From NCBI RefSeq assembly GCF_000024765.1, contig NC_013422.1:2359501-2423500 (forward strand): a stretch of DNA of 64,000 nt. Reading direction: 5' to 3'. The notes below the pieces were generated by a model. The model made no database searches, was not told the DNA's origin, and worked only from the letters and a program-made list of their open reading frames with translations. A program made the translations under genes and the position numbers. The DNA comes from Halothiobacillus neapolitanus c2. GTDB lineage: Bacteria; Pseudomonadota; Gammaproteobacteria; Halothiobacillales; Halothiobacillaceae. Every line of letters begins with the position of its first letter. Position 1 is the first letter of the stretch. Positions 4,874-28,623 of the stretch are shown here, one piece after another.

Positions 4874-4992
4874 ACCCTTTCGGGTTGCCATTGCATTGCT
4901 GCTGTGCTTAAGTAAAAAGGCGCATGGGTCGTCATCTTGCTCAATGAAGCGGCTCATCCGGCACCATGCACGCTGTACCACCAAGGAAATTT

Positions 4993-6180: not shown

Positions 6181-6421
6181 GTGTCGCACTTTACTGTAAT
6201 CGCGCAATTACTGCTCATCCGCCATTAGTCAATGGCTGCTCAGGAATCGTCAGGAAAACCTGAAATTCCACCGCTATCGGTGTGGTCCCCGCCACCCAAC
6301 ACCAACCAGGACAACTGGAACACCAGGGGAACACACCACGCCCATCGTCGATGGGCCTGCTCGTGGTGCGTCCGGAATCTCCCCGCATGCACCGACATTC
6401 ACCCCTGTCCAGGAGAGTCAC

Positions 6422-12297: not shown

Positions 12298-13164
12298 TTA
12301 TGCTGTCGCGAGATTCATCGGCCTGATCATCGGTGGGTGCTGTGGATCGTAATTCTCTGGCAAATCGCCCTCGGCAATCTTGTGTGAACGGCTAACCAGA
12401 AAATCGACCATATGATTCCGCAGGGTATAGAAATGCGGGTTATGGTGCATTTCTGTGCGCAAACGCGGACGTTCCAGTGGATTCTCCACGATTTCGGCTA
12501 TTTTGGCATATGGTCCGTTGGACATTAGAAGGATTTTGTCCGCCAGTAAAATAGCTTCATCGACATCATGGGTGATCATGAATACGGTCTGCCGAGTCGC
12601 TGCACAGATCTTCACGAGCTCATCTTGGATTACGCCGCGTGTCAATGCATCAAGTGCACCGAAGGGTTCATCCATCAGCAGCATTTTAGGTTCGATAGCA
12701 AAGGCGCGGGCAATACCCACACGTTGTTTCATGCCACCCGAAAGTTGGTGCGGTTTTTTATTCAGCGCATGCTTCAATCCGACCAATTCCAGATACTTAA
12801 CACAATGCGTCTGAACTGCCTCCTTGCCCCACTGCGGCCAGCGAGATTTCACAGCAAATGCCACGTTTTGCTCTACGGTAAGCCAAGGCATCAAGGCATG
12901 ACTTTGGAATACCACCCCTCGGTCGAGGCTGGCGCCGGAAACTTCCCGTCCATCCATGAATACGTTGCCCCCGCTGGCTGAGTCAAGACCCGCTAGCACA
13001 TTGAGAATCGTCGATTTGCCGCAACCCGAGTGGCCGATGATGCAAATAAACTCACCGCGCTGCACCTCGAAATGGATATTGTCGAAAACCGTCACGTCGT
13101 CACCACCCGAAACTCCAGGAAATATTTTCTTGAGTCCTTCGACTTTAAGGAAAGCTTGGCTCAT
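12298..13164 (-). CDS. ABC transporter ATPase, NrtD/CynD type (cyanate/nitrate family)
   Basis: A 288-residue ATPase with Walker A GHSGCGKST, signature LSGGMKQRVGIARA, Walker B MLLMDEPFGALD and the switch histidine in ITHDVDEA. The extended C-terminus (MHHNPHFYTLRNHMVDFLVSRS) is typical of the nitrate/cyanate/bicarbonate subfamily. The ATG at 13164 is preferred over an upstream start inside the permease end. It is the last gene of a three-gene importer operon read leftwards. Linkage to a cyanase at 24153 and a NifA-like activator suggests a nitrogenous substrate such as cyanate; sulfonates remain possible because SsuB-type ATPases are related. Confidence 0.82.
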   Translation of the reverse strand: MSQAFLKVEGLKKIFPGVSGGDDVTVFDNIHFEVQRGEFICIIGHSGCGKSTILNVLAGLDSASGGNVFMDGREVSGASLDRGVVFQSHALMPWLTVEQNVAFAVKSRWPQWGKEAVQTHCVKYLELVGLKHALNKKPHQLSGGMKQRVGIARAFAIEPKMLLMDEPFGALDALTRGVIQDELVKICAATRQTVFMITHDVDEAILLADKILLMSNGPYAKIAEIVENPLERPRLRTEMHHNPHFYTLRNHMVDFLVSRSHKIAEGDLPENYDPQHPPMIRPMNLATA

Positions 13165-13168
13165 GTTA

Positions 13169-14011
13169 TTACTCCTGGTAGGCCACAAAACGAGTTAGCG
13201 CACCAAATATTGCATCCAGCAACATGCCGACGACACCTATCATGAAGATGGCAAAAATCACATTGGCCAGATTAAGGTTATTCCATTCGTTCCAGACGAA
13301 GTAACCGATTCCGGTACCACCGACCAGCATTTCTGCCGCGACGATGACGAGCCAGGCAATGCCCATAGAAATACGCATCCCGGTCAGGATAGTGGGTGCG
13401 GCGGCAGGCAGGATCACCGTTATTGCTGTCTTGAGGGGGGTAACTTCAAGGGTTTTGGCCACGTTCAACCAATCTTTTCTAACTGAGGCCACGCCATGCG
13501 CGGTATTGATCATCATCGGCCAGATGGAACATATGAAAATCACAAAAATCGACGATGCATTGGCATCCTTGATGGTATAAAGCGCGAGCGGCATCCATGC
13601 CAGTGGCGAAATCGGCTTAAGCAATTGAATGTAAGGGTTGAGCGCCTTGAACACCAGTGGCGACATACCAATCAAAAAACCAAGCGGAATGGCCACAATC
13701 ACTGCGAGCAGAAAACCCGCCAGAACCCGCCCCAAAGACCAAGACAGCTGGATGCCGATTCCCTTGTCGTTGGGGCCGTTATCGTAAAACGGGTTAGCGA
13801 GTTGATGCAGCAGGGTCTGGCCTACAGCATCTGGCGTGGGTAATCCGGCGGCCTTCGTAGTTGCCGTACCCATCATCGCGGCATATTCCGGATCAGCATA
13901 GGCTGGCGCACTTGACGCTTTGGGTTGGGTAGCCAGTTGCCAAACGCCCACAAATGCCAATAACAGCACGATGGATACCAGCCCGGCGCGCAGGTTCAGG
14001 GACGGGCTCAT
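13169..14011 (-). CDS. ABC transporter permease, NrtB/CynB type
   Basis: A 280-residue inner-membrane permease with an N-terminal hydrophobic helix, a periplasmic stretch and about five further helices. The binding-protein-dependent transport loop is seen at EVTPLKTAITVILPAAAPTILTGMRI. The segment PISPLAWMPLALYTIKDANAS is typical of the nitrate/cyanate/bicarbonate permease group. It ends 4 bases before the ATPase start and begins 2 bases after the binding-protein stop, so the three genes form a compact operon. Confidence 0.85.
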   Translation of the reverse strand: MSPSLNLRAGLVSIVLLLAFVGVWQLATQPKASSAPAYADPEYAAMMGTATTKAAGLPTPDAVGQTLLHQLANPFYDNGPNDKGIGIQLSWSLGRVLAGFLLAVIVAIPLGFLIGMSPLVFKALNPYIQLLKPISPLAWMPLALYTIKDANASSIFVIFICSIWPMMINTAHGVASVRKDWLNVAKTLEVTPLKTAITVILPAAAPTILTGMRISMGIAWLVIVAAEMLVGGTGIGYFVWNEWNNLNLANVIFAIFMIGVVGMLLDAIFGALTRFVAYQE

Positions 14012-14013
14012 GT

Positions 14014-15387
14014 TCAGGTTCTCCGAATACTAAATGAATCGAGGTAGGCCTTAGGCTGACTGGGGTCGAAAACTTTGCCCATGATGGTATGGTTTTCATA
14101 GTTCGAATCTGGTGCGCTCAGGCCCATTTCCCGCAGACGAGTACGGGCATCAGTGGCCAAAAAAACCTGTTCGGCGATTTGTTTGTAGTCGATGTCCTGC
14201 TTGATATACCCCCAGCGCTTAAGTTGGGTCAGCATCCAGACCCCCATCGACTGCCAGGGGAACGGGTCAAAATCGGCCCGCCCGGGTACGTCCCGAATGT
14301 TACCCAGACCATCCGCAAACTTGCCGGTCATAACCTGTTGCAGCACGGGAATTGGCTGATTCAGATAATTGGCAGGTGCAATAGCCTCAATAATAGCCGG
14401 CCGGTTTTCCTGCTTGTGGGCATACACCGTAGCATTGGCAATCGCTCGAAACAGCGCAGAGAAGGTATTGGGGTTTTCCTTGACGAAACTCTCGGTTACC
14501 CCAAAAGCACAGCAGGGGTGACCGTCCCAGATGTCTTTTGATAAAACCTGGATAAAAGCAAAGCCTTCGTATACAGCCCGTTGATTAAATGGCTCAGGCC
14601 CGAGGAAGCCATCTATATTGCCTGCACGCAGGTTGGCAACCATGTCGGGCGGAGAAATGATGGTGAGTTGAACATCTTTGTCTGGATCAATGCCATGCTC
14701 GGCGAGGTAGTAGCGTAAGAGCATGTTATGCATGGAATAATCAAAGGGAATCCCGAATTTCATACCCTTCCAATTTTTAGGGTCGCGGTTGTCTTTGTGC
14801 TTAATGTGCATGGTAATCGCCTGACCATTGATGTTCTGGATGGTAGCGACAAAGGTTTCATTCGTTTTGGAACCCAATCCCATGCTAGCGGCGATAGGCA
14901 TGGGTGAGAGCATGTGCGAGGCGTCATATTCATTATTCAAAACCTTGTCCCGCACTAATGCCCAACCGGCCGTTTTGATAATGTCGACATTCAGGCCTTC
15001 CCGCTCATAGAAACCCATGGGTTTGGCCATGATGATTGGCGTAGCACAAGTAATAGGAACAAAACCTACCTTGAGATTTTTTTTCTCCAATGGACCGCCC
15101 TCGGCAGCCAAGGCTTGTGCGGCGCCGAGGGGAAACAGGCTGGATAATGCAGCCATGGCGGTTCCCGCACCAACCGCCTTCAAGAAGTTACGCCGTGTTT
15201 CATCGTGGGGGAAAATCGAGCGCACGAGCGTCGATTCTATTACACGGTTGAGCGCGGATTCTTCTTCCCTAGGTTCTGGTGTGGAGGCGGCTTGCGCATC
15301 ATGCTCTGACTGACTGGCATGTTGGCCGCATGAGCAGCCTTTCTTGAAGCGAATGGTCGGATCGAAGGGGTTTTTAAAAGCAGACAT
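14014..15387 (-). CDS. NrtA/CynA-type substrate-binding protein with Tat-like signal and Cys-containing N-terminal extension
   Basis: A 457-residue solute-binding protein of the CmpA/NrtA/CynA family. Two arginines at residues 65-66 followed by NFLKAVGAG form a Tat-like signal, preceded by an unusually long ~60-residue leader containing GCSCGQH (Cys18, Cys20). The mature part has KVGFVPITCATPIIMAKPMGFYEREGL and the ligand-pocket segment FLGPEPFNQRAVYEG. It heads the importer operon. A GGGAG ribosome site precedes the ATG, and a strong sigma-54 site lies about 44 bases upstream. Cyanate, nitrate or nitrite are the likely substrates; cyanate is favoured by the nearby cynS. The leader's function is unknown. 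Confidence 0.82.
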   Translation of the reverse strand: MSAFKNPFDPTIRFKKGCSCGQHASQSEHDAQAASTPEPREEESALNRVIESTLVRSIFPHDETRRNFLKAVGAGTAMAALSSLFPLGAAQALAAEGGPLEKKNLKVGFVPITCATPIIMAKPMGFYEREGLNVDIIKTAGWALVRDKVLNNEYDASHMLSPMPIAASMGLGSKTNETFVATIQNINGQAITMHIKHKDNRDPKNWKGMKFGIPFDYSMHNMLLRYYLAEHGIDPDKDVQLTIISPPDMVANLRAGNIDGFLGPEPFNQRAVYEGFAFIQVLSKDIWDGHPCCAFGVTESFVKENPNTFSALFRAIANATVYAHKQENRPAIIEAIAPANYLNQPIPVLQQVMTGKFADGLGNIRDVPGRADFDPFPWQSMGVWMLTQLKRWGYIKQDIDYKQIAEQVFLATDARTRLREMGLSAPDSNYENHTIMGKVFDPSQPKAYLDSFSIRRT

Positions 15388-15430: not shown

Positions 15431-15447
15431 CGCAATCCTCATGCCAA
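15431..15447 (-). promoter_or_regulatory. Candidate sigma-54 promoter of the ABC importer operon
   Basis: On the minus strand the bases read TTGGCATGAGGATTGCG. This matches the sigma-54 consensus TGGCAC-N5-TTGCW at TGGCA and TTGC with correct spacing. The expected start site is about 11 bases further left, leaving a leader of roughly 33 bases before the ATG at 15387. The neighbouring gene encodes an activator of the sigma-54 class. Confidence 0.72.
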
Positions 15448-15694: not shown

Positions 15695-17314
15695 ATGACT
15701 ATCTCAATCAAACCAACCACGACAACAAATGCAGATGAAGATGTCGAACTCCTGATCATCTACGAAGCTTCGCGCTTGATGACGCACAATGGCACTGCCG
15801 ATGAGGCCATTAACGGCATCCTGCGGCTGATGTCACAGATGATCGGCCTGAATCGTGGGCGCGTCACGCTGAAAGACGACGACATGGACACCCTAAGCAT
15901 TCGCTATTCCTATGGGCTAACCCCGCCAGAGCGAGCGCGGGGGCACTATGTCATCGGCGAAGGCGTTACCGGGCGTGTCATGCAGACCAGACAAGTCGCC
16001 GTCGTCCAGAATATTGACGACGAACCGGTCTATCTGACACGAGCCGTGGAACGCGGTACCCTACCACAGGAAACTGTAGCCTTCTTGGCCGTTCCCATCC
16101 TCTATAACAACACACCACTTGGTGTGCTCGGGGCCCACCGACTTCGCGGACGCAAACGCCCCTTCAGTAGAGATATCAATCTGTTGCAGGTATTAGCGAC
16201 ACTGATTGCACAAATTCTGAGCCTGAGTCGACTCATTGAAGAAAAGACCGCTCTGCTGGCCGACGAGAACCGTGCCCTTAAACAAGCGTTGGATCAGAAG
16301 ACCGAAGGCACCCACGGCATCCTGGGCGAAAGCCCAGCTCTACGTCACGCACTACGACAGGCCCTGCATGTTTCCCCGACTCAGGCGACCGTGCTTCTCA
16401 CCGGCGAATCAGGCACCGGCAAAGAACGCTTCGCTCGCTTAGTGCATATCACCAGTCAGCTGCGCGACGGACCGTTCATGGCCATTAACTGCGCGGCCAT
16501 TCCAGAGGCATTGCTCGAATCGGAATTATTCGGCCATGAGAAGGGCGCCTTCACCGGTGCGGTGGTCAAGAAACAAGGGATCATCGAATTGGCCAACAAT
16601 GGAACATTGTTCCTCGACGAAATCGGTGATCTGGCGCTCGATTTACAGTCTAAGCTGCTGCATGTGCTTGAGAAACGGGCAATAAAGCGCGTGGGCGGTA
16701 CTCAGGATATACCGGTTAATGTTCGTATCATTGCGGCCACACATAAAAACCTGCAGAAGGCTGTCAATGAAGGGCAATTCCGAATCGATCTGTTTTATCG
16801 CTTGAATGTGTTCCCCATCCATCTGCCACCGCTGCGGGAACGAGGGGGTGATGTAAGTCATCTGGCACGGCACTTCCTGCAACGGGCCAATCATGAATTT
16901 GACCGTAATACGGTATTCGGCCCCGGCGTGCTGGAGCGACTGGATGGCTACAACTGGCCTGGCAACATACGCCAGCTGGAAAATATTGTTAAACGAGCCG
17001 TTCTGATCGCGCAGAACCGAGAGATCACAATCGACGATGTGATTTTGATCCTGCAGCACGAATCGCATATCGGAGAGCATCTGGAAGCAGGCTCGACAAA
17101 ATCTGTCGCACCGATCGAGCCCCCATCACTGCCTTCAAAATCGCATCAACCGACTCAGCGTGGTTACGGTTGGGTGCGTGCCGATGAAACCCAAGGCCTG
17201 CTCGACGCCTTGCGTCAAACCGGTGGAAACAAGACTCGGGCTGCAATGACGCTTGGCATGACGCCACGTCAATTCCGCTATCGGCTGGAACGCTTGGGGC
17301 TGCTGGCTCAATAG
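15695..17314 (+). CDS. Sigma-54-dependent transcriptional activator, NifA-like (GAF-AAA+-Fis)
   Basis: A 539-residue enhancer-binding protein. Residues ~20-180 form a GAF sensor domain (GEGVTGRVMQT, FLAVPILYNNTPLGVLGAHR). Residues ~206-440 form the AAA+ domain with Walker A GESGTGKE near residue 237, the sigma-54-contacting GAFTGA loop near residue 284 and Walker B GTLFLDEIGDL. The C-terminal Fis-type helix-turn-helix is seen in GGNKTRAAMTLGMTPRQFRYRLERLGLL. The architecture is that of NifA/AnfA. It is transcribed divergently from the ABC importer and lies beside genes with -24/-12 promoters, so it is the probable regulator of this block. The GAF ligand is unknown. Confidence 0.9.
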   Translation: MTISIKPTTTTNADEDVELLIIYEASRLMTHNGTADEAINGILRLMSQMIGLNRGRVTLKDDDMDTLSIRYSYGLTPPERARGHYVIGEGVTGRVMQTRQVAVVQNIDDEPVYLTRAVERGTLPQETVAFLAVPILYNNTPLGVLGAHRLRGRKRPFSRDINLLQVLATLIAQILSLSRLIEEKTALLADENRALKQALDQKTEGTHGILGESPALRHALRQALHVSPTQATVLLTGESGTGKERFARLVHITSQLRDGPFMAINCAAIPEALLESELFGHEKGAFTGAVVKKQGIIELANNGTLFLDEIGDLALDLQSKLLHVLEKRAIKRVGGTQDIPVNVRIIAATHKNLQKAVNEGQFRIDLFYRLNVFPIHLPPLRERGGDVSHLARHFLQRANHEFDRNTVFGPGVLERLDGYNWPGNIRQLENIVKRAVLIAQNREITIDDVILILQHESHIGEHLEAGSTKSVAPIEPPSLPSKSHQPTQRGYGWVRADETQGLLDALRQTGGNKTRAAMTLGMTPRQFRYRLERLGLLAQ

Positions 17315-17337: not shown

Positions 17338-17790
17338 TCAGAGAATCGGACCGGCCACGCCGATCAGGATGATCAGAATGCCCAGCGCCAGGTTGATCGC
17401 CATGATCTGGCGGATGGGCTTCATGGCCGCAGCGGCATCCGGCCAGCGCTGCTCACTGACGGCCCGATGCAACCTTACAACCAGCACAAACGACAGCCAG
17501 GCAAACAGCAAGATCATGATCCAACCAATCACCTGCATCGCCACAAGATATGCTTGCGTTAGAGAGCCGTCAAAACGAGTGAACAAATCAACATAACCGG
17601 TGGTTACCAGTATCACGATGAAGAACCAGACCCAAGGAAAAAACCGTGCGAAGACAGTGCTCCAAAGTTGCAACCGCTGGGGCGGTTCGAACATCGTGCT
17701 CACCGGCCGCAGCACCATGAAAGCGAAGAAAATGCCGCCTATCCAGAGAACGGCGGCCAAGTCGTGCATAATCGTTATGAGCATGTTCAT
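17338..17790 (-). CDS. CopD-like four-helix membrane protein
   Basis: A 150-residue integral membrane protein with four hydrophobic helices. The N-terminal histidine in ITIMHDLAAVLWIGGIFFAFMVLRP and the conserved RQIMAINLALGILII near the end resemble small CopD-superfamily proteins, some of which bind heme or copper. The ATG at 17790 has an AGAGGA ribosome site; a longer frame starts at 17826. It lies 148 bases downstream of the rhodanese gene on the same strand and converges on the activator gene. It may be the last gene of the osmC operon or stand alone. Confidence 0.65.
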   Translation of the reverse strand: MNMLITIMHDLAAVLWIGGIFFAFMVLRPVSTMFEPPQRLQLWSTVFARFFPWVWFFIVILVTTGYVDLFTRFDGSLTQAYLVAMQVIGWIMILLFAWLSFVLVVRLHRAVSEQRWPDAAAAMKPIRQIMAINLALGILIILIGVAGPIL

Positions 17791-17938
17791 CACTGATTCC
17801 TCTTGCGATAGAACACCCTCAATCATAAGCCAAGGGCGGTTCTCTTAGGGCCGTTTCACCCAACCCTACCAACCACTAATCGCTCAACGGTGCGCAACCT
17901 GGGTTCTGCACGAATGACGCCAATCAAGGACTCCCCGT

Positions 17939-18796
17939 TCAGGCGACGGCGTATGGCAAGCCTTCCTCGATTGGCAGGGACGGATCGCGAGACCATTCGT
18001 TCCAAGATCCGAAGTAAAGTTTCACGTTCTCGATACCGGCTGACTTCAAAGCGACCAGGGTATTGGATGCGCGCGCACCTTTGAAGCAGTAGAGATACAC
18101 CGGCGTATCCTTAGAGATACCGACGGTGGCACACTCTGCCAGCACTTCTTCCGGCGCCTTGAACATCGGTACGGCGCCCGGCTTCATGAGGCGATACCAC
18201 TCTATCCAGACCGCACCCGGCAGTCGTCCCTTGCGCGGGCAAAAATCTTTGCCGTAGGGGGAGGAACTGGTCCCGATCCACTCATCGATGTCCCGTACAT
18301 CAAGTAAAACGGGGCTCTCGCTGTCCAGAGCAGCCAGAATCTCATCCTTACCGATCATAAGATCAGTGCCCGTATCGATCAGCGGGAAGCTAGCGGGGAT
18401 AGGTGTCGGCACCTCCGTTGAGACTGGCAGCGATTCTGCGAGCCAGGCTTGATAACCGCCATGCAGAATATTCACCTTCGGATAACCGAAGTAGCTCAAC
18501 AGGAAATAACCACGGCACGACATGCCAAAACCTGTATTCATTGCATCTTCGTAGATGATCGCCGTTTCTTTGCCAGACAATCCAGCCTTGCCGAATGTTT
18601 CGGCGAATTTCACTTTCAATTCTTCCAATCCCTCGGGCGAGGACGTTGCCAGAAAGGTAAAAATGTCATGGATATTGACCGCACCGGGAATATGGCCGGC
18701 GGCATAAGCGTCTGGGTTTCGGGCATCAATGACCACTGTTGGCTCGGTATCCATCAGGGTCTTCATTTGGGGGGCGGTTAGCAGGACAGAACTCAT
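17939..18796 (-). CDS. Two-domain rhodanese (thiosulfate/thiol sulfurtransferase)
   Basis: A 285-residue tandem rhodanese. The inactive N-terminal domain reads VVIDARNPDAYAAGHIPGAVNI; the catalytic domain has VLLDVRDIDEWIG and the active-site loop CFKGARAS with Cys237. Such enzymes move sulfane sulfur between donors such as thiosulfate or persulfides and acceptors such as cyanide or thiols. The loop differs from the CRKG-VT loop of classic TST and the CGSGVT loop of mercaptopyruvate sulfurtransferase. The ATG at 18796 follows an AGGAGA ribosome site. It lies 60 bases after the rubredoxin reductase start-to-stop unit, in the operon read from osmC. The acceptor is unknown; cyanide or thiocyanate chemistry would fit the neighbouring cyanase. 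Confidence 0.85.
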   Translation of the reverse strand: MSSVLLTAPQMKTLMDTEPTVVIDARNPDAYAAGHIPGAVNIHDIFTFLATSSPEGLEELKVKFAETFGKAGLSGKETAIIYEDAMNTGFGMSCRGYFLLSYFGYPKVNILHGGYQAWLAESLPVSTEVPTPIPASFPLIDTGTDLMIGKDEILAALDSESPVLLDVRDIDEWIGTSSSPYGKDFCPRKGRLPGAVWIEWYRLMKPGAVPMFKAPEEVLAECATVGISKDTPVYLYCFKGARASNTLVALKSAGIENVKLYFGSWNEWSRDPSLPIEEGLPYAVA

Positions 18797-18856
18797 GGCA
18801 AATCTCCTATGAATCAATGAACAAGAAAGATAATAAGGCATTGTTTTGAATATAAT

Positions 18857-20299
18857 TCATGCTGCGGTGGTAGCCCCAAACAAGGAATCAATCACGATAG
18901 GATGCAGGTACTCGCTTTGCGGCGTGCACCGTCCGGTCAATGCATAGCCCATCAATTGGTTACGAACCAGAAAATCCATACGACAGGCTCCTTTGTCTGC
19001 CTCATTCACCTCATCCGGGGTGTGAACATGCCAGTTGCCAAAATCAGCCACACTCCGATCGGGCGGGCAAACGTTGATTGGAAGGCTGGGGGTTTTGACT
19101 CTTATGGCTGTTGGAAGATGCTCAAATGGTCTGTGCTTTCCAACAAGCGCAGCCGCAACGGTTGCCGCCTGGCGACGAATAGGCTCGATGTAAAAGTAGC
19201 TCCGCCCATCGACCTCAACACAATCACCAATGGCGTAGATGTGCGGATCGCCGGTACACATATTGTCCGCGTTCGCGACGATGCCGCGATTCACATTCAA
19301 CCCCGCCTTTCTGGCCAAATCGGTGTTCGGCACCAGGCCCACCGCAGAGATCACCAGATCCGTGGTCAGTAACTCGCCATCGCTCAAGGTCGCGCGCAAG
19401 CGATTACCGTTTGTGTTCAGCGCCGCGATGCTAATACCGGGCATAAACTCGGTACCGCGCTCACGCAGCGAGGATAATAAGAGACGGGCAACCGGCGTTG
19501 GCACCAACCGTCCAAGAAGTTGTGCCCCAAGATCAAGTAAGGTGACCCGATGCCCGCCCGCTTGAAGGTCTTCAGCGAACTCGACCCCAATCAATCCCGC
19601 CCCGATCAAGGTGACGTGCTGAGGTCCCCTTGAGAGTTTTTCTCGCATCTTGCGATAGCTTGTCAAATCATTAACCCGCAGGATCTGGTCGGCTGCATCG
19701 CCTTCACAGGCAAGGCGACGTTGTGAGGAACCCAGCGCCAGTACCAAGTCGCCATAGGCTACCTTGCCCTTGGTCGTCATCAGCCGCTTATCTTTGGGCT
19801 TGATGCTCAAAACACGCGTGTTTGCCTGCAGGGTCACACCAAGCGCTTCTGCCTTGTCCGGCCCGGATTGTTCGATCAAGTCATCCGCGCTGCGCCCCTG
19901 ACCAATGGCCATGGATAATGATGGCTTGGGATACACACAACCATCATCGGCGGTGATCAACGTGATTTGTCGATCCAAATCCTGCGCACGAAGCTGCTCT
20001 ACAGCAGTCCAACCGGCAATGCCACTGCCGACAATGACGACGGCATCCTCACCACCGATCTGACCCCGCGCACGACGTGGACGAGTCATCGGACCACTGG
20101 ACGCGCGTTGAGCCGCGTATTCTTCCATCGTGATGAAATCAGCCTTGGTTACCCCGCACAACGGGCAGGACCAATCCTCGGGAATGTCTTCAAAGCGGGT
20201 GCCCGGAGCGATGCCACTATCCGGATCGCCCTTGACCTCATCGTATATCCACCCACATATCAGGCAGATCCAACGCGGCGTGTCGTCATTTATGGTCAT
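18857..20299 (-). CDS. Rubredoxin-NAD(P)H:rubredoxin reductase fusion
   Basis: A 480-residue fusion. Residues ~9-55 are a complete rubredoxin with cysteine pairs CLIC (12, 15) and CPLC (45, 48). Residues ~80-480 are a FAD/NAD-linked oxidoreductase with [11 protein letters not shown] near residue 90, a second dinucleotide fold at [16 protein letters not shown] and the closing [16 protein letters not shown](P)H electrons would pass via FAD to the rubredoxin iron and then to a partner enzyme. The best candidate partner is the flavoprotein encoded immediately upstream (31-base gap). Rubredoxin reductases commonly supply alkane hydroxylases or oxygen/ROS-reducing enzymes; none of those is present here. 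The ATG at 20299 is chosen because the longer frame runs into the upstream gene. Confidence 0.88.
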
Positions 20300-20330
20300 G
20301 CGCCCAACCTCACTCTCCTGCTCGATTCGC

Positions 20331-21467
20331 TTAGAGAGCCGCCATGGCATCGATTTCTTTGCGGAGGTGTTTGGTAGCCGGGGTCACGATAGCGACGAAG
20401 TAGGCTTCGCGCAGCTTTCGTTGTGCTGGGGCGTCGTGCAAATAACCACTGGCTCCCGTGTGCAACATGGCGGAATTTGCCGCGCGCAAGGAGAGCTCGG
20501 ACCCGAGCAGCCGCGCCTCCAATACCGTACGCATGAATTCCGCATCCTTGTTGAAAATATCTTCACCCAAACTGGAGATAAGATCGCGCGCATCTTCCAG
20601 CTCCTCGCGCAATTCGTCAGGGCGATCATCCAAATAACAATTCACATGGCCGAGCTTGGGCTCTACGTCCTCGCACAGTTTGATGCACCCTTCAACCAGA
20701 CCAGTCGCCATGCCGGTTTGCATCAGCACAAAACCAGCCTTCATCTTTTTGATATAGGGTATCAGCGGATCACCGAGAACATGGTTCTTGGGTACGAATA
20801 CCTCTTTGAAAGACAACGCATAAGTACCTGTGCCTTCCATGCCACAGAACTTGGCCAGTTGTTTCAATGTCACACCGGGCCAGGAGGTGTTAACCATGGC
20901 CATCACATCGCGCGGCTGATTGCCACCAACCTTGAAAATGGAGCCAAACCAATGATCCGGACCGAGATTCGACACCCATGGCAAGGTACCGTTGAGAAGA
21001 TAGCCGTCTTCTGTTTCGACTGCAGAGAGCAGTAAGGGCTCAATACCGGCTAGATATTTCATGGGGTTGGAGAGTGCAGTACCACCTAAAACCTCACCAC
21101 GGGCAAGCTTGGGCAAAAGAGTTCGCTTGAGATAATCGTTGGCTGACATTTCGACGTACCATGCCGCCACATTCTGAGCCCAGACCATAAAGCCTGTAGA
21201 CATGCACTCCTGGGAGACAATATCCATCGCCTTCAGGGCAGAATTGATATCAAATTCACCGCGGCCATTTTGCGAGGCCAGATGCTGGCAGAAGGCGCCG
21301 GTTTCGCCCAGAGCCCTAAGGACTTCAGCCGGGTAATAACCCTCGTCAATTTTGACAGTCAAAGGAGCAAGCTTATCGCGCACAACATCTCGAACCTGAT
21401 TGAAGAGCAGCTCGCCCTCGGGGATGCCTAGCGGTGGGTTGTTAAGAGTCGCAGCTACTGCGGTCAT
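20331..21467 (-). CDS. Acyl-CoA-dehydrogenase-fold flavoprotein of unknown substrate
   Basis: A 378-residue protein with the acyl-CoA dehydrogenase fold: N-terminal helical domain, middle beta domain ([29 protein letters not shown]) and C-terminal helices ending in LRKEIDA. At the C-terminus, where true acyl-CoA dehydrogenases of the MCAD type carry the catalytic glutamate in YEGTSQIQ, this protein reads [12 protein letters not shown], so that base is missing. The same fold is used by flavin monooxygenases such as DszC and by SfnB-like proteins. With a rubredoxin reductase next door, an oxygenase or other redox role is plausible. Substrate unknown; cyanide-, thiocyanate- or organosulfur-type compounds are guesses from context. 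A TGACATTCTCCTAG-type stretch upstream (read on the plus strand) includes an AGGAG ribosome site. Confidence 0.75.
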
Positions 21468-21999
21468 GACATTCTCCTAGAGTAATGAGGCTGCACGACG
21501 AAGCATGCAGCGTAAATCGGCATCAGATCAGCGCGCAGTCCAGAGCAACCGGGCGCGTCATGGTGTTCGCAACAGGTGACCATTTCTTCGCATGTTGCAA
21601 CAGTGCATCTTTTTCAGACTCACTCATCGGATCGACAGTTTCGAGATCGAACTTCACGCGGATGGCGGTGAAACCCAGCGGCTTGTCGTCGTCCAAATCG
21701 CCAGTACCCCACACCGCTGTGACGTTGATGTCACCCTCGATATGGAGTTCGAGTTTCGTCAGCTTGATACCCCGTGCTGTCGCGTTGGCATGGACCCCAA
21801 CCGCCAGGCAAGCGCCCAGTGCGGCCATCAGAGCTTCGGATGGGTTGGGTGCCGTATCCTCACCCAACAGATGCGGCGGTTCGTCCACAATGACCGGATC
21901 GAGGCTCCGGATGTAAGTCAGGTTGCGAAATTGGCCCTCGCAAACGGTCTTGGCTTTCAGGGTAACGATCGTATTCGGGTTGGCCTTACCTTTTTCGGC

Positions 22000-22262
22000 C
22001 AATATAGTTAGTCCATCTCGCTTTCTGTGATACTGATCACAGCCGGCAGGTAGCTGTCGGTGGAAGTGGGATATGCGCCTGCGGATTACGAATTTCTCGG
22101 CCAAATCACCCGATGATCACCGCTTTGGTTTCGAATCTGCAGGTGCGCTTGAGTGCGACAACGAATACTCAGGGCTTGCCGTCACACCGGCTCTCTATAT
22201 TGCCTTCGCAGCGCCCAAGCACGCACATCCCGTGCCTTCAGTCTAGCAGTCCGGAGGTCATC
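22000..22262 (+). ncRNA. Non-coding left end of the IS110 element, candidate bridge RNA region
   Basis: In IS110-group elements such as IS621, the non-coding left end upstream of the recombinase gene is transcribed into a structured bridge RNA that pairs with target and donor DNA. The equivalent region here is 263 bases long and contains short palindromes such as TGTGAT-ACT-GATCACA around 22025-22042. The RNA itself is an inference from family knowledge; promoter and folds were not computed. Confidence 0.4.
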
Positions 22263-23555
22263 ATGAAATCTCAACTCACACTTCAATCTGACGGCGAATT
22301 TGCCGCCTTTATCGGTATCGACTGGGCAGATACCAAGCATGACATTTGTCTGCAGGCTGCGGACGGCGTCCAGCGAGAGTTTGCTGTCCTGCCGCATCGC
22401 CCGGCTGACATTGATGACTGGGTGGTTACCCTGCGGCACAGATTCCACGGCCGACCCGTGGCTATCTGCATCGAGACATCCCGTGGCGCACTGGTCTATG
22501 CACTGCAAAAGTATGATTTCCTGGTCCTGTTCCCGATCAATCCGGCCACACTCGCTAAATACCGGCAAGCCTTCAAGCCCAGCCGTGCCAAGTCAGACCC
22601 AACGGATGCACAGATCGCCCTGGAGATTCTCATGAATCACCGGGATAAGTTGAAGCCACTTCGCCCGCAAAGCTCCGGCATTCGCACGCTGACGCTGCTT
22701 CTGGAGGAGCGCCGCCAGATCGTAGACGAACAGCGGCGCCTCACCAATCGCCTGATCAGCAACCTCAAGCAATACTATCCCCTGGCTCACGAGTGGTTCG
22801 AGAATAAGAACACCACATTGTTCTGTGAGTTCATGGCCCGTTGGCCTACCTTGAAGCAGTTGCGGCAAGCCCGCCGCAAAACCCTGGAAGCCTTCTTCCG
22901 GGAGCACAACTGCCATCACCACAAGCTGGTCGAGGAACGGCTTGCCAGCATCAAGAATGCGGTGCCGTTGACCGAGGATCCCGCCATCATCAGGCCCAAA
23001 CAACTGCTGGTTGAAAGTCTGGTGGAACAGTTGCGGATAACACTCAAGTCCATTGCCCGCTTCGATGCTGAAATCGACGCGCTGGCTCCAACGCTTCCTG
23101 ATTATGACCTGTTCAGGTCATTGCCTGGCGCCGGACCGACACTGGCTCCGCGCTTGCTGGTTGCCTTTGGTGAACAGCGCGACCGCTATTCAAGCGCCGC
23201 CGAAATCCAGATGTATGCCGGCATCGCTCCGGTCACAGAGCGCAGCGGCAAGCAACATTGGGTGCACTGGCGAATGCAATGCCCGACATTTATGCGCCAG
23301 ACCTTTGTTGAGTGGGCCGCATTGACTATTCCCCGCTCCTACTGGGCCAATGCCTACTATCGTCAGCAGCGCGCCAAAGGCGCAGCCCATCAGGCCGCGT
23401 TACGCGCTCTGGCGTTCAAGTGGGCCCGCATCCTGTACCGCTGCTGGCTGACGCGTACACCGTATGATGAGTCGAAATATCTGACTGCACTTAAACGCCG
23501 TGGCTCGACATTGCTGTCGCTGCCGGTCCTCACGGAGGCCGCCCAAACAGCATAA
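22263..23555 (+). CDS. IS110-family transposase (recombinase)
   Basis: A 430-residue recombinase. The N-terminal RuvC-like DEDD domain begins AAFIGIDWADTKHDI, with the later acidic motif SDPTDAQIAL. The C-terminal Transposase_20 domain has LPGAGPTLAPRLLVAFG, IQMYAGIAPVTERSGK and a conserved serine candidate in that segment. The ATG at 22263 is preceded by GGAGG and is preferred over an upstream start at 22113. The gene is intact, so the element could still be active. It is transcribed against osmC. I see no second copy in this window. Confidence 0.92.
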   Translation: MKSQLTLQSDGEFAAFIGIDWADTKHDICLQAADGVQREFAVLPHRPADIDDWVVTLRHRFHGRPVAICIETSRGALVYALQKYDFLVLFPINPATLAKYRQAFKPSRAKSDPTDAQIALEILMNHRDKLKPLRPQSSGIRTLTLLLEERRQIVDEQRRLTNRLISNLKQYYPLAHEWFENKNTTLFCEFMARWPTLKQLRQARRKTLEAFFREHNCHHHKLVEERLASIKNAVPLTEDPAIIRPKQLLVESLVEQLRITLKSIARFDAEIDALAPTLPDYDLFRSLPGAGPTLAPRLLVAFGEQRDRYSSAAEIQMYAGIAPVTERSGKQHWVHWRMQCPTFMRQTFVEWAALTIPRSYWANAYYRQQRAKGAAHQAALRALAFKWARILYRCWLTRTPYDESKYLTALKRRGSTLLSLPVLTEAAQTA

Positions 23556-23730
23556 AAAACACTTGACGACCATCTCAGGGCACAAAGCCGCCAAGCCTTG
23601 TTTGTCGATTTCACGCAATGCCTGGCGGACACAAGCGGGGGCTACGGGTTCTAAAATTGGGGTACTCATGAAATTTCTCCTAGTCTTTGGTTGATGGTAT
23701 CAAGTACAAAACGCTTCTCTGGACTAACAA

Positions 23731-23747
23731 TGCACACCCTGTGCCAA
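23731..23747 (-). promoter_or_regulatory. Candidate sigma-54 promoter of the osmC operon
   Basis: On the minus strand the bases read TTGGCACAGGGTGTGCA: TGGCAC and TGCA with the correct N5-type spacing, a near-consensus -24/-12 element. The expected start site is about 12 bases further left, giving a leader of about 50 bases before the osmC ATG at 23669. Since the IS110 insertion, this promoter drives only the first 29 codons of osmC before reaching the element. Confidence 0.75.
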
Positions 23748-24092: not shown

Positions 24093-24152
24093 GTGTATTG
24101 AAATGCGTGCACACGAAGCGCTTTAATAACCACACTAAACGGAGTGATCATT

Positions 24153-24596
24153 ATGATGACCAAAGAAGCCTTGACCGCCCTGATTTTGGAAAAGAAAGCC
24201 GCTCTCTCACTGACTTGGGAAGCCATCGCAGCAGGCATGAGTCTGTCGCCCGTATTTGCCGTTTCGGCTTGTCTCGGCATGAACAGCCTTAAAGAAGAAC
24301 CCGCACAGAAACTGGTGACGCTACTGGATCTGCCTGCCGAAGCCAAAACCATACTCATGGCTTGCCCGACCAAGGTCTGGGACAAAGCCATCCCGACCGA
24401 TCCCTTGATTTATCGCTTTTATGAAGTGATCGGCGTGTATGGCCCGACCATCAAATCGCTGATCCACGAAAAATTCGGTGACGGCATCATGAGTGCCATC
24501 GATTTTTCCATGCACATCGACAAGGAAGAAAATCCGGCGGGCGACCGCGTCGTCGTCACCATGAACGGCAAATTCCTGCCCTACAAATCCTGGTGA
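24153..24596 (+). CDS. cynS: Cyanase (cyanate hydratase)
   Basis: Converts cyanate and bicarbonate to ammonia and carbon dioxide in the cytoplasm, supplying nitrogen and detoxifying cyanate. The 147-residue protein has the N-terminal helical domain and the C-terminal catalytic domain with Arg88 and Glu91 in YRFYEVIG and Ser114 in GIMSAIDF, matching the known catalytic Arg/Glu/Ser set. The end AGDRVVVTMNGKFLPYKSW is standard. GGAG at 24141 favours the ATG at 24153; ATG at 24156 and GTG at 24144 are also in frame. It diverges from the osmC operon and has its own candidate sigma-54 promoter. A weak hairpin follows the stop (about 24596-24631) without a clear T tract. Confidence 0.94.
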   Translation: MMTKEALTALILEKKAALSLTWEAIAAGMSLSPVFAVSACLGMNSLKEEPAQKLVTLLDLPAEAKTILMACPTKVWDKAIPTDPLIYRFYEVIGVYGPTIKSLIHEKFGDGIMSAIDFSMHIDKEENPAGDRVVVTMNGKFLPYKSW

Positions 24597-24819: not shown

Positions 24820-25551
24820 TCACGCATGTGAGCCGAGCTTGCTTGTGTCGGCAAGTACGATCTGGGCGCGGATCGGGCGGTGATCGGATGCGATACGCAC
24901 CAGGGGGTGATCGATGGCATCCTGACGAATGAATTCGATCGCGCCGGCCAGCCAGATGGCGTCGAGCGCCATGAACGGACGGTGAGCCGGAAAGCTGGCC
25001 GGTGTGTTCAAGCGGCGGAATGATTGATGCAGCGACCTGAGGGTGCCCGGGCCGGGCCACCATTCATTGAAATCGCCGATCAGGAGACGATGGGTCGGGT
25101 GATCTCCTGCGCGATGGGCGTGGGCATGGGCATGGATGCGTTCGACCTGGTACCTGCGCTCCCATCTTTTCAATCCCAGATGCGCAACCCAGATGGCCAA
25201 TCGTTGGGATTGATGCGTCACTTCGGCACACAGTAATTGACGGCGCTCGCGGCCGGGCACGGAGAGGTCAAGGCTAGGCTGTTCGGTCAGCGGCAGGCGG
25301 CTGAGCAACATGTTGCCAAAATAGCTGCCGGGCAGCGGGCCGGCACGCGTGGTCACAAAGTGAGTCGCATAGCCTGCTGCCTGCGCCCATCGGATCAGCA
25401 GATCGTCGTGCAAATCGGTCAGCACGACTTCCTGCAGACCGATCAGATCGGCATCGATCAGTTCGATGACCCGCCAGATGCGCGCCAGATCAAGGCGCCG
25501 ATCACGACCGATCCCCGCGTGTATATTCCAGGTGGCGACCGTAAGTATCAC
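24820..25551 (-). CDS. Endonuclease/exonuclease/phosphatase-family hydrolase
   Basis: A 243-residue protein of the EEP superfamily with the metal-binding motifs TWNIHAGIG near the start, GLQEV, the central GDFNEWWPG and the C-terminal SDHRPI. Substrates in this superfamily range from nucleic acids to phospholipids. The ATG overlaps the last codons of the upstream PLD-VTT gene by four bases, so the two are probably coupled. The pairing with a phospholipase-D-like membrane protein suggests phospholipid or phosphodiester turnover at the membrane. The 223 bases between it and cynS show no gene. Confidence 0.82.
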   Translation of the reverse strand: MILTVATWNIHAGIGRDRRLDLARIWRVIELIDADLIGLQEVVLTDLHDDLLIRWAQAAGYATHFVTTRAGPLPGSYFGNMLLSRLPLTEQPSLDLSVPGRERRQLLCAEVTHQSQRLAIWVAHLGLKRWERRYQVERIHAHAHAHRAGDHPTHRLLIGDFNEWWPGPGTLRSLHQSFRRLNTPASFPAHRPFMALDAIWLAGAIEFIRQDAIDHPLVRIASDHRPIRAQIVLADTSKLGSHA

Positions 25552-27689
25552 GAACCGGAGGCTTGATTGCGCTGCGCAAGCAGGTAGGAGAGCCCCCAGC
25601 CGATCGCAACAAACACACCCGCCATTAACAGCAAAAGCCCCGTGGTGGCCAGACTGGGGTGGCGGATCGTTTCAAGGAGTTGATGGGAAAAGAAGGTCAG
25701 CGCAAAGGTGCCCGGAAACAGTCCCGCCAGACTGCCGATGAGAAAGTCCCGGAATTTCAGTCGCGAGGCACCGGCGACCAGATTGATCAGCGCGAACGGT
25801 GCGATCGGCAGCAGGCGCAGGGAGAAGACAGTGAGAATTCCTTTGCGGGCAAGGCGTCGGCTGATGCGATCGAGCTTCGAACCCGCCAGTCGGCGCATGG
25901 TCCCGGCGCCCAGCAACTGACCGATGACAAAGCCCAGCACGGCCGCCAGCACCGCCCCGATAAAAGCAATACCAAACCCCGTCCAGGCACCAAAAATCAA
26001 CCCCGTGGCGATCACCAGCGGCGTGATGGGCATACCCGCGACCGACGCGACCACAAATAGGCCAAAGGCGGCCAGCGGTCCCCAGCTTTCGGCGCGCAGC
26101 GTGTGAAGATGCGCCAGAAGCGCGCGTGGATCCAGAAATTGTTGCAACGGCGTGAACCGCCAGATCAGCGCAAGCGCCAGCATACCGGCGATAAGCACGG
26201 CCATGCCGAGTGCGCGCTTGCCCAGTGGGCGGCGATATTCGGACTCGATGAACAGGTCGATCAGCTCGTCCGGCGGCAGCGGCCGTTCGGGATCGATGAC
26301 GGCGGCATCGGGCACCTGCCGCTCCAGAGACTCATCCAGCGTGATGACCAGGGGTTCGAGCCAGCGATCGCCAACCTGCGGCCGGTTGAGGGCATCGATG
26401 GTTTGGATCAGCGAACCGGTGCGCTGTTCTGTCTGTGCGACAACCTCGATCGACGTGCTCAGGTGTTCCGCCAGAAGACGTCGGCGAACGGTGTCGATCG
26501 CGGCCTGACTTGCCGGGTCCGTGCCGAGCAGCGACAGGTTGAGTTCGCTGTCGAGCCCCATCGAACGGTTGGAGATGTTGGCCGAGCCGACGTTGAGGTG
26601 ACGATCGTCGGCAATCAGCAGCTTGCTGTGCAGACTGAGCATCTGCGGGGCCAATCCACGAATCTCGGGATAGTAAATCCGCAGCCGATCATGCCTGTCG
26701 GCGGCCTGTAGCCGGCGGATGAGTCGGGCCCGCAGGACATCCATCGTAACCCGCTCGAGCCAGCCATCTTTCGCGCGCGGCAGCACCAGCACAATCTCTG
26801 GGCCCTTCGCCGCGGTCAGCCGATCGATCAAGGCCTGACCGATGACGTGGCTGGTGAAATACTGATTCTCAATGTAGATGAACCGACGAGCCGACGCGAT
26901 CAGGGCCAGCAAGGCGGCCTCTACTTCACGAGCTTCCTCCTGCTCTTCGTGGGCCGGCAGGGTGCGGGCAATACCGATCAGCGCCTGGGTGACCAGCAAG
27001 GACAAATTCGTCGGCCAGGGCGTGGGCGCATTCGGATCGATCGATACCGGTGCCACCTTCCCGCCGGTCGCCAGCGCCCAACGGTTGCGCGCAAGGGTGG
27101 CGACATGCGCCGCCGGTGCGCCACTGACGGCCAGTGCCACATCATGGAAAGGCGGGTAGGCATCGCCACTCGGATCGTGTCGGCGCGGATCGCCCGGTGC
27201 GTGCGCCGTACTGTCCCACCGCCATTTGGAGGGATCGAATCCACCAACCAACGCAGTGCGATCATCGATGACGAGCGTCTTCTGGTGCTGCGAAGCGGCC
27301 AACGGATGATGGTTATCGAAGGCCACGTGCAGCCGAGGGTGCGCGCACTGGGGCAGGCTGAACAAGGGGCGCCACTCACGCTCAAGCGCGTAAATCATCG
27401 AGTAGTCCCAGGCCAGCAGATAGATATGCAGATCGGGGTTGCGGTTGAGTGCGTCGTGCAGCACATCAATCAGACGACAAGGCACGTGCGCGTCGTCGCA
27501 GGGCCGGATCAGCGCCATGCGGCTATCAACGTCCCAGCACAGAACCCATGCCTGATGACGAGCCTGCAAAAGCAAGTCGGCAAAAGCCCGGTAGTAGTCT
27601 TCGCCGTCGATCAGGACGCCGACCTGCTCGGCCGTATCAAGCCGCCAGAACAGATCGGTTTGTCGCTCGGTGGGTTCGTGTTCGGTCAT
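25548..27689 (-). CDS. Phospholipase D-like protein fused to a DedA/VTT membrane domain
   Basis: A 713-residue two-part protein. The N-terminal ~470 residues hold two PLD motifs: HQKTLVIDD and HSKLLIADDRHLNVGSANISNRS. After a linker, residues ~500-700 form a polytopic VTT/DedA (SNARE-associated) domain with VASVAGMPITPLVIATGLIFG and SLRLLPIAPFALINLVAGASRL. The first part probably transfers or hydrolyses phosphatidyl groups; DedA proteins are linked to lipid scrambling. The ATG at 27689 is preferred over a TTG at 27722. It is the first gene of a two-gene unit with the EEP hydrolase. Related fusions exist in other proteobacteria, as far as I recall; the precise function is not known to me. Confidence 0.85.
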   Translation of the reverse strand: MTEHEPTERQTDLFWRLDTAEQVGVLIDGEDYYRAFADLLLQARHQAWVLCWDVDSRMALIRPCDDAHVPCRLIDVLHDALNRNPDLHIYLLAWDYSMIYALEREWRPLFSLPQCAHPRLHVAFDNHHPLAASQHQKTLVIDDRTALVGGFDPSKWRWDSTAHAPGDPRRHDPSGDAYPPFHDVALAVSGAPAAHVATLARNRWALATGGKVAPVSIDPNAPTPWPTNLSLLVTQALIGIARTLPAHEEQEEAREVEAALLALIASARRFIYIENQYFTSHVIGQALIDRLTAAKGPEIVLVLPRAKDGWLERVTMDVLRARLIRRLQAADRHDRLRIYYPEIRGLAPQMLSLHSKLLIADDRHLNVGSANISNRSMGLDSELNLSLLGTDPASQAAIDTVRRRLLAEHLSTSIEVVAQTEQRTGSLIQTIDALNRPQVGDRWLEPLVITLDESLERQVPDAAVIDPERPLPPDELIDLFIESEYRRPLGKRALGMAVLIAGMLALALIWRFTPLQQFLDPRALLAHLHTLRAESWGPLAAFGLFVVASVAGMPITPLVIATGLIFGAWTGFGIAFIGAVLAAVLGFVIGQLLGAGTMRRLAGSKLDRISRRLARKGILTVFSLRLLPIAPFALINLVAGASRLKFRDFLIGSLAGLFPGTFALTFFSHQLLETIRHPSLATTGLLLLMAGVFVAIGWGLSYLLAQRNQASGS

Positions 27690-28623
27690 GGGCACAACTA
27701 CTGAATTTGAAGATGAAATCAATCAAGGGGCAGCTCGAAAAACCGTTCAAGATGCCCATTCGCCCCATGGAAGGAGTCGTTCTACTAAGAACAATACCAG
27801 ATTTACGCTTTGCAGAAGGCGGGGCACACAGACCGAGGTTGCGTCGCTGGCGCAGCTTCGGGTACCGATCGAACTGTTGATCCGGGTGATGGCCGCTGGC
27901 TTAACTGAATCACAGGGTCCGAAGACCCAAGAGATTCCTTGGAGAAGATTATTTGGCGTATTTTGCTTGAACTTGACGCTCGTTGCCAAAATCATGCCCA
28001 GCGAGCAAAGGCCCGTTCGAGGGCAGACCTACCTGAATTTGGATGCGAAAAATAGGAAGATGCAGCGAGTTCGTGTTTCAGGGGCCAAGTCCGAGGGACG
28101 CAGGCTGGATACCCCCTCATTTTATGCCTGAGACGGGGGCGGCCTGGTTCTGACTATTCTTGGGTCGCCGGGAGGTGATGATTGGTGTTATAGCGGCCGC
28201 TGTGATAGGTAAAGCAACTGATTACATGGGTGGGTTCTTAGCTGGCGGGTTTAACGTGCTGGTCACGCACATCACGGTGGTTTTGGGTCGCTTTCAGGTG
28301 AATAAACAGCTGCGCATCAAAGATGCCGGCAAGGTTGCCGCCAATAGTGGCGAAATCGCTTCCAATGGAATAAAGCGCTACGGGCGCCAGTCTGAACGCA
28401 AATATGGGGCGATCCGTGTGCTATCTGATTGGGCTTGTGCTGCGCACAATGCACCGTTCAAGGGCACTGGTTCCGCCCTATACCCGCCTAGTGGTGTGAA
28501 AGGCGGGTGGTGTGGATATTGCTTGAAAACCTTCGCAGGGCGCGATTTCTGTCGACCTCGGGACGACCCGACCCACTGCTTGTCTGGACGACCAGGTAAC
28601 TCACTTATTCAAGGGAGATTTAC
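27690..28623. other. Region of about 0.9 kb without a convincing gene
   Basis: The open frames here have unlike-protein composition and no recognisable domain. It contains a short relic of the MITE-like family (27733-27757) and a perfect inverted repeat, ACCCGCC at 28482-28488 with GGCGGGT at 28502-28508, whose loop is 13 bases and which lacks a T tract. Degenerate remains of a lost gene or an untranslated leader of the oxygenase gene at 28624 are both possible. Confidence 0.6.
27733..27757. repeat. Centre-deleted copy of the CTCGAAA MITE-like repeat
   Basis: GCTCGAAAAACC is joined directly to GTTCAAGATGCCC. These match the left end and the right end of the ~98-bp elements at 35934-36030 and 60874-60971, with the two central hairpins absent. 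It lies just upstream of the PLD-VTT gene. Confidence 0.55.

Follow-up and report, generated by a model that had tools for sequence, protein, structure and literature searches.

An acyl-CoA dehydrogenase-like protein lacking the catalytic glutamate is linked to cyanase and may supply its cyanate in Halothiobacillus neapolitanus and relatives

The acyl-CoA dehydrogenase (ACAD)-like gene of Halothiobacillus neapolitanus c2 is linked to the cyanase gene cynS far beyond chance, and the proteins of its family have lost both catalytic bases known from the ACADs. Because cynS, a rhodanese, an OsmC protein and a cyn-type regulator and transporter occur together around the gene, the production of cyanate is indicated, and we consider it quite probable that the ACAD-like protein feeds cyanate to cyanase. 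If cyanate is indeed made, these proteins belong to a route for salvaging nitrogen (and sulfur) and are misannotated; 23 of the 28 matches in the plasmid collection are named acyl-CoA dehydrogenase, and the other 5 are unnamed.

Fold and catalytic positions of the ACAD-like protein

The window, that is, the whole 64-kb stretch of DNA that was analyzed, carries the gene at the following place:

20331 to 21467, minus strand: putative flavoprotein of ACAD fold without the catalytic Glu (P0001, 378 aa; from the open reading frame, Pfam, structure model and alignment)

P0001 scores above the Pfam cut-off for the N-terminal ACAD domain (PF02771, Acyl-CoA_dh_N) and below the cut-off for the middle domain, and its matches to the ACAD models of NCBIfam are weak (top 59.4 bits, cut-off 650). 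The structure model, built with a 59-row alignment (mean pLDDT 93.7, pTM 0.92), gave Z scores of 41.4 to 4kto over 351 residues, 40.9 to ColB1 and 40.7 to IVD (1ivh), and its top matches in Foldseek and in the Z-ranked comparison all belong to the acyl-CoA dehydrogenase family. According to this model, P0001 is predicted to adopt the ACAD fold. The closest solved structures by sequence are likewise ordinary ACADs.

The original prediction described such a fold without the usual catalytic Glu, which the wider alignment bears out. The segment IVTPATKH comprises residues 360 to 367, and phmmer places T362 opposite the catalytic Glu in an ACAD of known structure. In alignment A2, which consists of P0001 and relatives hand-picked from 58 of the 80 loci described below, near-copies being left out, this MCAD-Glu position is Thr in 58 of the 59 rows and Ser in 1, while P363 is Pro in all 59; being conserved over 58 relatives, the Thr-Pro substitution is not a matter of chance. 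At the column of the IVD-type Glu (M242), the residues are I, M, A, S and V, with an acid in 0/59 rows, and residues 234 to 258 of P0001 include no acidic residue, so that a catalytic Glu is absent at both the MCAD and the IVD position throughout the 59 rows. The ACAD segment EPxAGSD, which we take to be a CoA contact, is missing from all 59 rows as well: it is replaced by SNPMKxxxGIE, in which N134, K137 and E143 are invariant (59/59), and the model places a helix at 133 to 139, where this segment would be. In a mixed alignment with 48 outgroup rows, some of them duplicates and four of them faulty (L117, L140, L143, L144), Glu occupies the T362 column in 21 outgroup rows, the M242 column in 15 and column 134 in 42.

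Sequence models give the family a mixed affinity. PF08028 is matched by 28/59 members and PF00441 by 17/59 (E 0.01). P0001 itself reaches 19.5 bits against PF08028 (cut-off 22.7) and 18.4 bits against the SfnB model TIGR04022 (cut-off 430.9), and by these cut-offs it falls outside the SfnB/DszC-type monooxygenases. In a tree made by a quick method from 67 rows (exact duplicates removed, every second A2 row used), the 30 family rows form one clade with an SH-aLRT of 100, apart from the 30 rows retrieved with PF00441 or PF08028; the SfnB-like rows fall on the family's side with a support of 81, which is not strong. These SfnB-like oxygenase relatives have HDP in the same segment, the Pro at P363 being common to both. 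An IVD-type Glu together with clustering among genuine dehydrogenases, the outcome that would speak against the original prediction, was looked for, and the family has no such Glu and forms a clade of its own. In the genome of this strain, PF00441 has no match at E 0.001 and the P0001 gene is the sole PF02771 match; ordinary beta-oxidation is therefore unlikely here.

Gene neighborhood and linkage to cynS

The neighboring features of the window are listed below by position:

12298 to 13188, minus strand: putative ABC transporter ATPase (from reading and place; homologues lie beside the permease and substrate-binding protein in related loci)
13169 to 14011, minus strand: ABC transporter permease (ntrB model above cut-off)
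14014 to 15387, minus strand: ABC transporter substrate-binding protein of NMT1_2 type, here type A (family match)
15431 to 15446, minus strand: sigma-54-like site TGGCATGAGGATTGCG, 59 nt upstream of the transporter gene
15695 to 17314, plus strand: GAF-AAA-Fis sigma-54-dependent activator, NifA-like, likened to CynF by position
17338 to 17826, minus strand: CopD-like membrane protein (family match; present in 5/80 related loci)
17939 to 18841, minus strand: two-domain rhodanese/sulfurtransferase with active-site CFKGAR (family match, alignment)
18857 to 20350, minus strand: rubredoxin fused to an NADH:rubredoxin-reductase-like protein, 497 aa as listed (PF00301 and Rbx_binding PF18113 above cut-off)
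21523 to 22002, minus strand: 3' part of osmC, encoding a single-Cys OsmC-like protein, 5' limit approximate
22113 to 23555, plus strand: IS110-family transposase of the element interrupting osmC (putative element, known by its transposase ORF)
23583 to 23669, minus strand: 5' part of osmC, the first ~29 codons, severed by the IS element
23731 to 23746, minus strand: sigma-54-like site TGGCACAGGGTGTGCA, 77 nt upstream of the osmC ATG
24144 to 24596, plus strand: cynS, cyanase, 150 aa (above NCBIfam and Pfam cut-offs)

On the minus strand, the interrupted osmC is followed by the ACAD-like gene, the rubredoxin-reductase fusion, the rhodanese gene and the CopD-like gene, past which lie the plus-strand activator gene and, divergent from it, the ABC transporter; cynS stands on the opposite side of the operon, 2.7 kb from the ACAD-like gene. 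Thus cynS, an ABC transporter and a sigma-54 activator, the three parts by which we recognize a cyn cluster, are all present in the window. A rubredoxin reductase next to the ACAD-like gene had been proposed from the window's sequence, and the fused reductase-like gene downstream, with both of its domains above cut-off, agrees with this; an internal ATG at ~20299 may be its true start. The rhodanese Cys252, within CFKGAR, is kept in 37/37 aligned rows, the window included. Against the NifA model TIGR01817, the activator reaches 464.9 bits (cut-off 528.85) and so stays outside NifA, and nitrogen fixation was rejected on this ground.

The IS110 element has a near-identical second copy in the genome (G000:C1:1017850-1019295, one other copy), and its insertion in osmC therefore looks recent. 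Intact osmC genes occur among the relatives, and in this strain the ACAD-like gene is intact. The element cuts off the ACAD operon from the sigma-54-like site, and therefore the pathway may be silent in this strain. Elsewhere in the window, the amidohydrolase, aminotransferase, peptidase-like and aldehyde dehydrogenase genes at 4966 to 10382 resemble, by reading, an ectoine-degradation (doe) set, and a gene at 25548 to 27722, adjoined by an exo/endonuclease-phosphatase protein gene at 24820 to 25551, fuses phospholipase D-like domains to a VTT membrane domain.

A tblastn search of the genome collection (E 1e-3) returned at least 578 confirmed stretches encoding a relative, among which distant ACADs may figure and one gene may give two stretches. 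The neighborhood set is the best 80 of them, and the tallies on it (tblastn, E 1e-10, at least 40% of the query) are not independent, as these closest relatives include near-kin such as several Thioalkalivibrio and Guyparkeria. Of the 80 loci, 77 contain OsmC, 65 the reductase-like gene, 55 cynS, 48 the activator and 36 rhodanese. For the 55 loci flanked by 8 kb or more on each side, these counts become 55, 49, 43, 36 and 27, respectively, tblastn finding no cynS in 12, no rhodanese in 28 and no reductase in 6. A transporter of type A or B accompanies 52 of these 55 loci (27 B, 19 A, 6 both, 3 neither); in six Thioalkalivibrio loci, type A adjoins cynS and type B lies closer to the ACAD gene. 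Two loci carry the genes on a single strand, in the order transporter-OsmC-ACAD-rhodanese-cynS in Roseibium (L072) and OsmC-ACAD-rhodanese-cynS-transporter in an alphaproteobacterial locus (L101). Plasmids of Acetobacter and Marinobacter have a similar gene set with cynS annotated, and cynS is absent from the stretches seen of Methylocystis, Pseudosulfitobacter and Moraxella plasmids.

One Cys of OsmC is kept in 76/79 rows (the other 3 being gaps), and Ser-Pro stands at the expected second-Cys site in 76/79; the position holding Ser is presumably the second reactive Cys site of canonical OsmC/Ohr, and with its single conserved Cys the family does not have the makeup of a two-Cys OsmC/Ohr peroxidase. 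The rubredoxin motif occurs in 50 of 66 reductase matches, and the fusion is present in at least 50 loci. The 16 matches without the motif comprise 4 incomplete readings (L040, L041, L043, L060), 1 other protein (the second match of L061) and 11 remaining variants, ten of them alphaproteobacterial by name; the 3 of the 11 that were checked are ferredoxin-NAD reductase types with Reductase_C. Judging from these sequences, electron supply from a rubredoxin or ferredoxin-type reductase would be a recurrent feature of the loci.

Several smaller features accompany the family. A DUF302 small-protein gene lies beside the ACAD gene in 16/80 loci (e.g., L052 7897-8277), in 14 of these 16 between the ACAD and reductase genes. 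DSBA-family or GST genes stand beside rhodanese in some loci (L085 11932-12657, L113 10923-11528, L036 12562-13179), hinting at glutathione chemistry; the DSBA-family gene of L113 is annotated as 2-hydroxychromene-2-carboxylate isomerase. In Neisseria gonorrhoeae (L109 8416-10377, a chromosome-sized record filed as a plasmid), a stand-alone rubredoxin gene comes after the gene of a family member, a CMD-family (AhpD-like) gene stands before it in place of osmC, and tblastn found none of the other operon genes within 9 kb in this one record; in Moraxella, a CMD gene likewise takes the place of osmC. A phage or mobile origin of the ACAD-like gene was rejected: a scan of viral contigs gave no close relatives, and the 27% identical ACAD-like genes on OR849882.1 and OR845000.1 (unannotated, "Staphylococcus phage") are probably host DNA.

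The linkage to cynS was assessed in two sets of genomes. Among 369 class-level genomes, the ACAD-like gene is present in 14 (E 1e-30) and cynS in 51; cynS occurs in 13 of the 14 genomes with the gene versus 38 of the 355 without it (Fisher 2e-11, kinship ignored). The lone gene-positive genome without cynS, which is 85% complete, holds the most divergent match (36% identity), and in 11 of the other 13 both genes lie on one contig within ~10.3 kb. In the window's own family, Halothiobacillaceae, the gene is patchy (17/27 genomes), and cynS accompanies it in 17/17 genomes versus 1/10 without it, two of these ten being only 64% and 81% complete (Fisher 2e-6, kinship ignored). The distance to cynS is 1.27 to 2.98 kb in all 17 (about 1.3 to 3.0 kb). 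The sole family genome, of 27, that has cynS without the ACAD-like gene carries it at G385:C70:12895-13095.

Sigma-54-like sites recur upstream of osmC. The 64-kb window contains 27 sites at 9/12 or better, and either candidate site is thus weak alone. Over 73 loci (7 of the 80 were omitted, with OsmC missing or reversed or the flank too short), a site of at least 10/12 lies upstream of osmC in 31/47 activator-linked loci, versus an expectation of 0.91 derived from other parts of these loci, and in 6/19 loci with a TetR regulator, versus 0.22 expected; among loci with neither regulator, 2/7 have one.

Proposed function and competing explanations

The original prediction proposed an oxygenase or reductase acting on a small nitrogen- or sulfur-containing molecule. 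This proposal fits the gene context. Our own proposal, that P0001 is an FAD-dependent ACAD-fold oxygenase supplying cyanate to cyanase in a nitrogen-scavenging pathway, is in our judgment evenly balanced between right and wrong. Thiocyanate is favored as the substrate because, being an anion, it depends on a transporter for entry, and because it can be turned into cyanate, with sulfur left over for OsmC and rhodanese; we would accept it as readily as doubt it. The full version, a rubredoxin-dependent flavin monooxygenase converting thiocyanate to cyanate inside the cell as a further route beside thiocyanate hydrolase and the copper enzyme TcDH, is put forward somewhat more tentatively.

In this version, the ABC transporter would import a small anion, most likely thiocyanate, and electrons from NADH would pass through the fused rubredoxin reductase and rubredoxin to FAD. 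The reduced flavin would then form a flavin hydroperoxide with O2, which would attack the sulfur side of SCN- and release cyanate, and cyanase would convert cyanate and bicarbonate to ammonia and CO2. The sulfur would leave by way of the single-cysteine OsmC protein and rhodanese, which from their conserved residues could serve as sulfur carriers, and the whole operon would be under the control of sigma-54 and its activator. Since 6/55 loci have no reductase gene, the NADH supply may come from elsewhere or be unneeded. Also counting against the proposal are the full-flank loci in which tblastn found no cynS (12/55) or no rhodanese (28/55), the N. gonorrhoeae record, the plasmid stretches lacking cynS, the ordinary ACADs as nearest solved sequences and the PF00441 matches of 17/59 members. 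Thiocyanate is a pollutant of mining and metallurgy and a nitrogen source for many bacteria. Our literature search, mainly of open-access papers, found neither an assigned gene for a cytoplasmic thiocyanate-to-cyanate route nor a description of the ACAD-like gene as tied to cynS or in the proposed role; to our knowledge, the family would be the first ACAD-fold enzyme acting on an inorganic pseudohalide.

Cyanide is the main rival to thiocyanate as the substrate, although we regard it as unlikely. A cyanide monooxygenase would oxidize HCN/CN- to cyanate with its flavin hydroperoxide, cyanase would go on to ammonia, and rhodanese would be a parallel cyanide detoxification. The cyanase linkage fits this equally well, cyanide is the classical acceptor of rhodanese, and an NADH-dependent cyanide oxygenase activity reportedly exists in Pseudomonas fluorescens NCIMB 11764. 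HCN passes through membranes and needs no ABC transporter, yet 52/55 loci have one; moreover, the available text on P. pseudoalcaligenes describes cyanide and cyanate as assimilated by independent routes (PMC6627978).

Rather less probable is an oxygenase or reductase whose substrate is some other nitrogen- (and sulfur-) containing compound from which cyanate or cyanide is released; organic thiocyanates, isothiocyanates, thiocarbamates and cyanamide are examples. The cluster is served by transporters of two distinct types. Each matches the SsuA-family model but stays under the cut-off of 163.5 bits (type B 89.8 and 94.3, window type A 66.8), so that the ligand may be sulfonate-like or an organosulfur compound; GST and DSBA-family genes, as helpers of glutathione type at some loci, point the same way. 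In our judgment, however, a common simple anion better accounts for the broad host range and for there being two types of transporter. SfnB-type sulfur acquisition, weighed because of the sigma-54 activator, the rhodanese and the SsuA-like transporter, was rejected, as the SfnB score is far below cut-off and the cyanase linkage is stronger.

More doubtful still is a flavoprotein that works without O2, either a dehydrogenase releasing electrons as thiocyanate goes to cyanate and sulfur, or a reductase. CaiA, a reductase of ACAD fold, also has no Glu in this segment, and the 6/55 full-flank loci without a reductase gene would suit such an enzyme, but 49/55 have a reductase-like gene. For the dehydrogenase, there is the further difficulty that electron flow from NADH to rubredoxin runs downhill in rubredoxin-linked NADH reductases, and these would therefore supply electrons and not accept them. 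Finally, an ordinary acyl-CoA dehydrogenase with a moved catalytic base, standing beside cyanase by chance, has the ACADs as its best solved relatives in its favor and is ruled out, as very improbable, on residues (no acid at the MCAD or IVD position, EPxAGSD replaced), tree (a separate clade) and context (no PF00441 match in the genome, cynS linkage beyond chance).

Comparison with known systems

The P0001 model matches the acyl-CoA dehydrogenases SCAD, MCAD and IVD over nearly the whole chain, and W-[VI]-S-N stands in P0001 at the place of the ACAD W-[IV]-[TS]-N segment. The family differs from these three enzymes in having Thr-Pro for Glu, no IVD-type acid, a replaced EPxAGSD segment and a shorter stretch before the central helix. 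DszC and HsaA are flavin monooxygenases of ACAD fold that lack the Glu-Gly catalytic motif. This motif is absent both from the SfnB-type monooxygenases and from the P0001 family, and the Pro is shared; in contrast to the SfnB type, with which it is weakly grouped (support 81), P0001 is linked to a rubredoxin reductase, and the similarity is very low. The 3-sulfinopropionyl-CoA desulfinase of Advenella (5af7) uses the ACAD fold for sulfur removal and has a Z score of 38.0 to the P0001 model, and the C-terminal part of P0001 matches its NCBIfam model with 37.3 bits (cut-off 600). By its name, however, the desulfinase has a CoA substrate, and we know of no link between it and rubredoxin or cyanase.

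As described in the available text on Pseudomonas pseudoalcaligenes CECT5344, the cynFABDS cluster resembles the window in its sigma-54 activator divergent from an ABC transporter, in cynS, and in a sigma-54 promoter upstream of the transporter, where the window has a putative site (PMC6627978). The terms acyl-CoA, rubredoxin and rhodanese are absent from the main text of that paper. For Guyparkeria, the accessible part of PMC9032823 reports cyn in all genomes and two strains that do not use thiocyanate for energy, and its authors leave open how general thiocyanate oxidation is. The energy result counts against thiocyanate as the substrate, but nitrogen use is a different question. In the portions of PMC5733100 at hand, weak growth on thiocyanate is reported for Hydrogenovibrio thermophilus S5, for which a cyanate transporter and CynS are listed, and H. 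crunogenus does not use thiocyanate. In sulfur oxidizers, a copper enzyme, TcDH, converts thiocyanate to cyanate; the parts of PMC6504805 and PMC8061750 available to us present it as soluble, periplasmic and working with cytochrome c550, whereas P0001 has a flavoprotein fold and a putative supply of electrons from NADH through rubredoxin.
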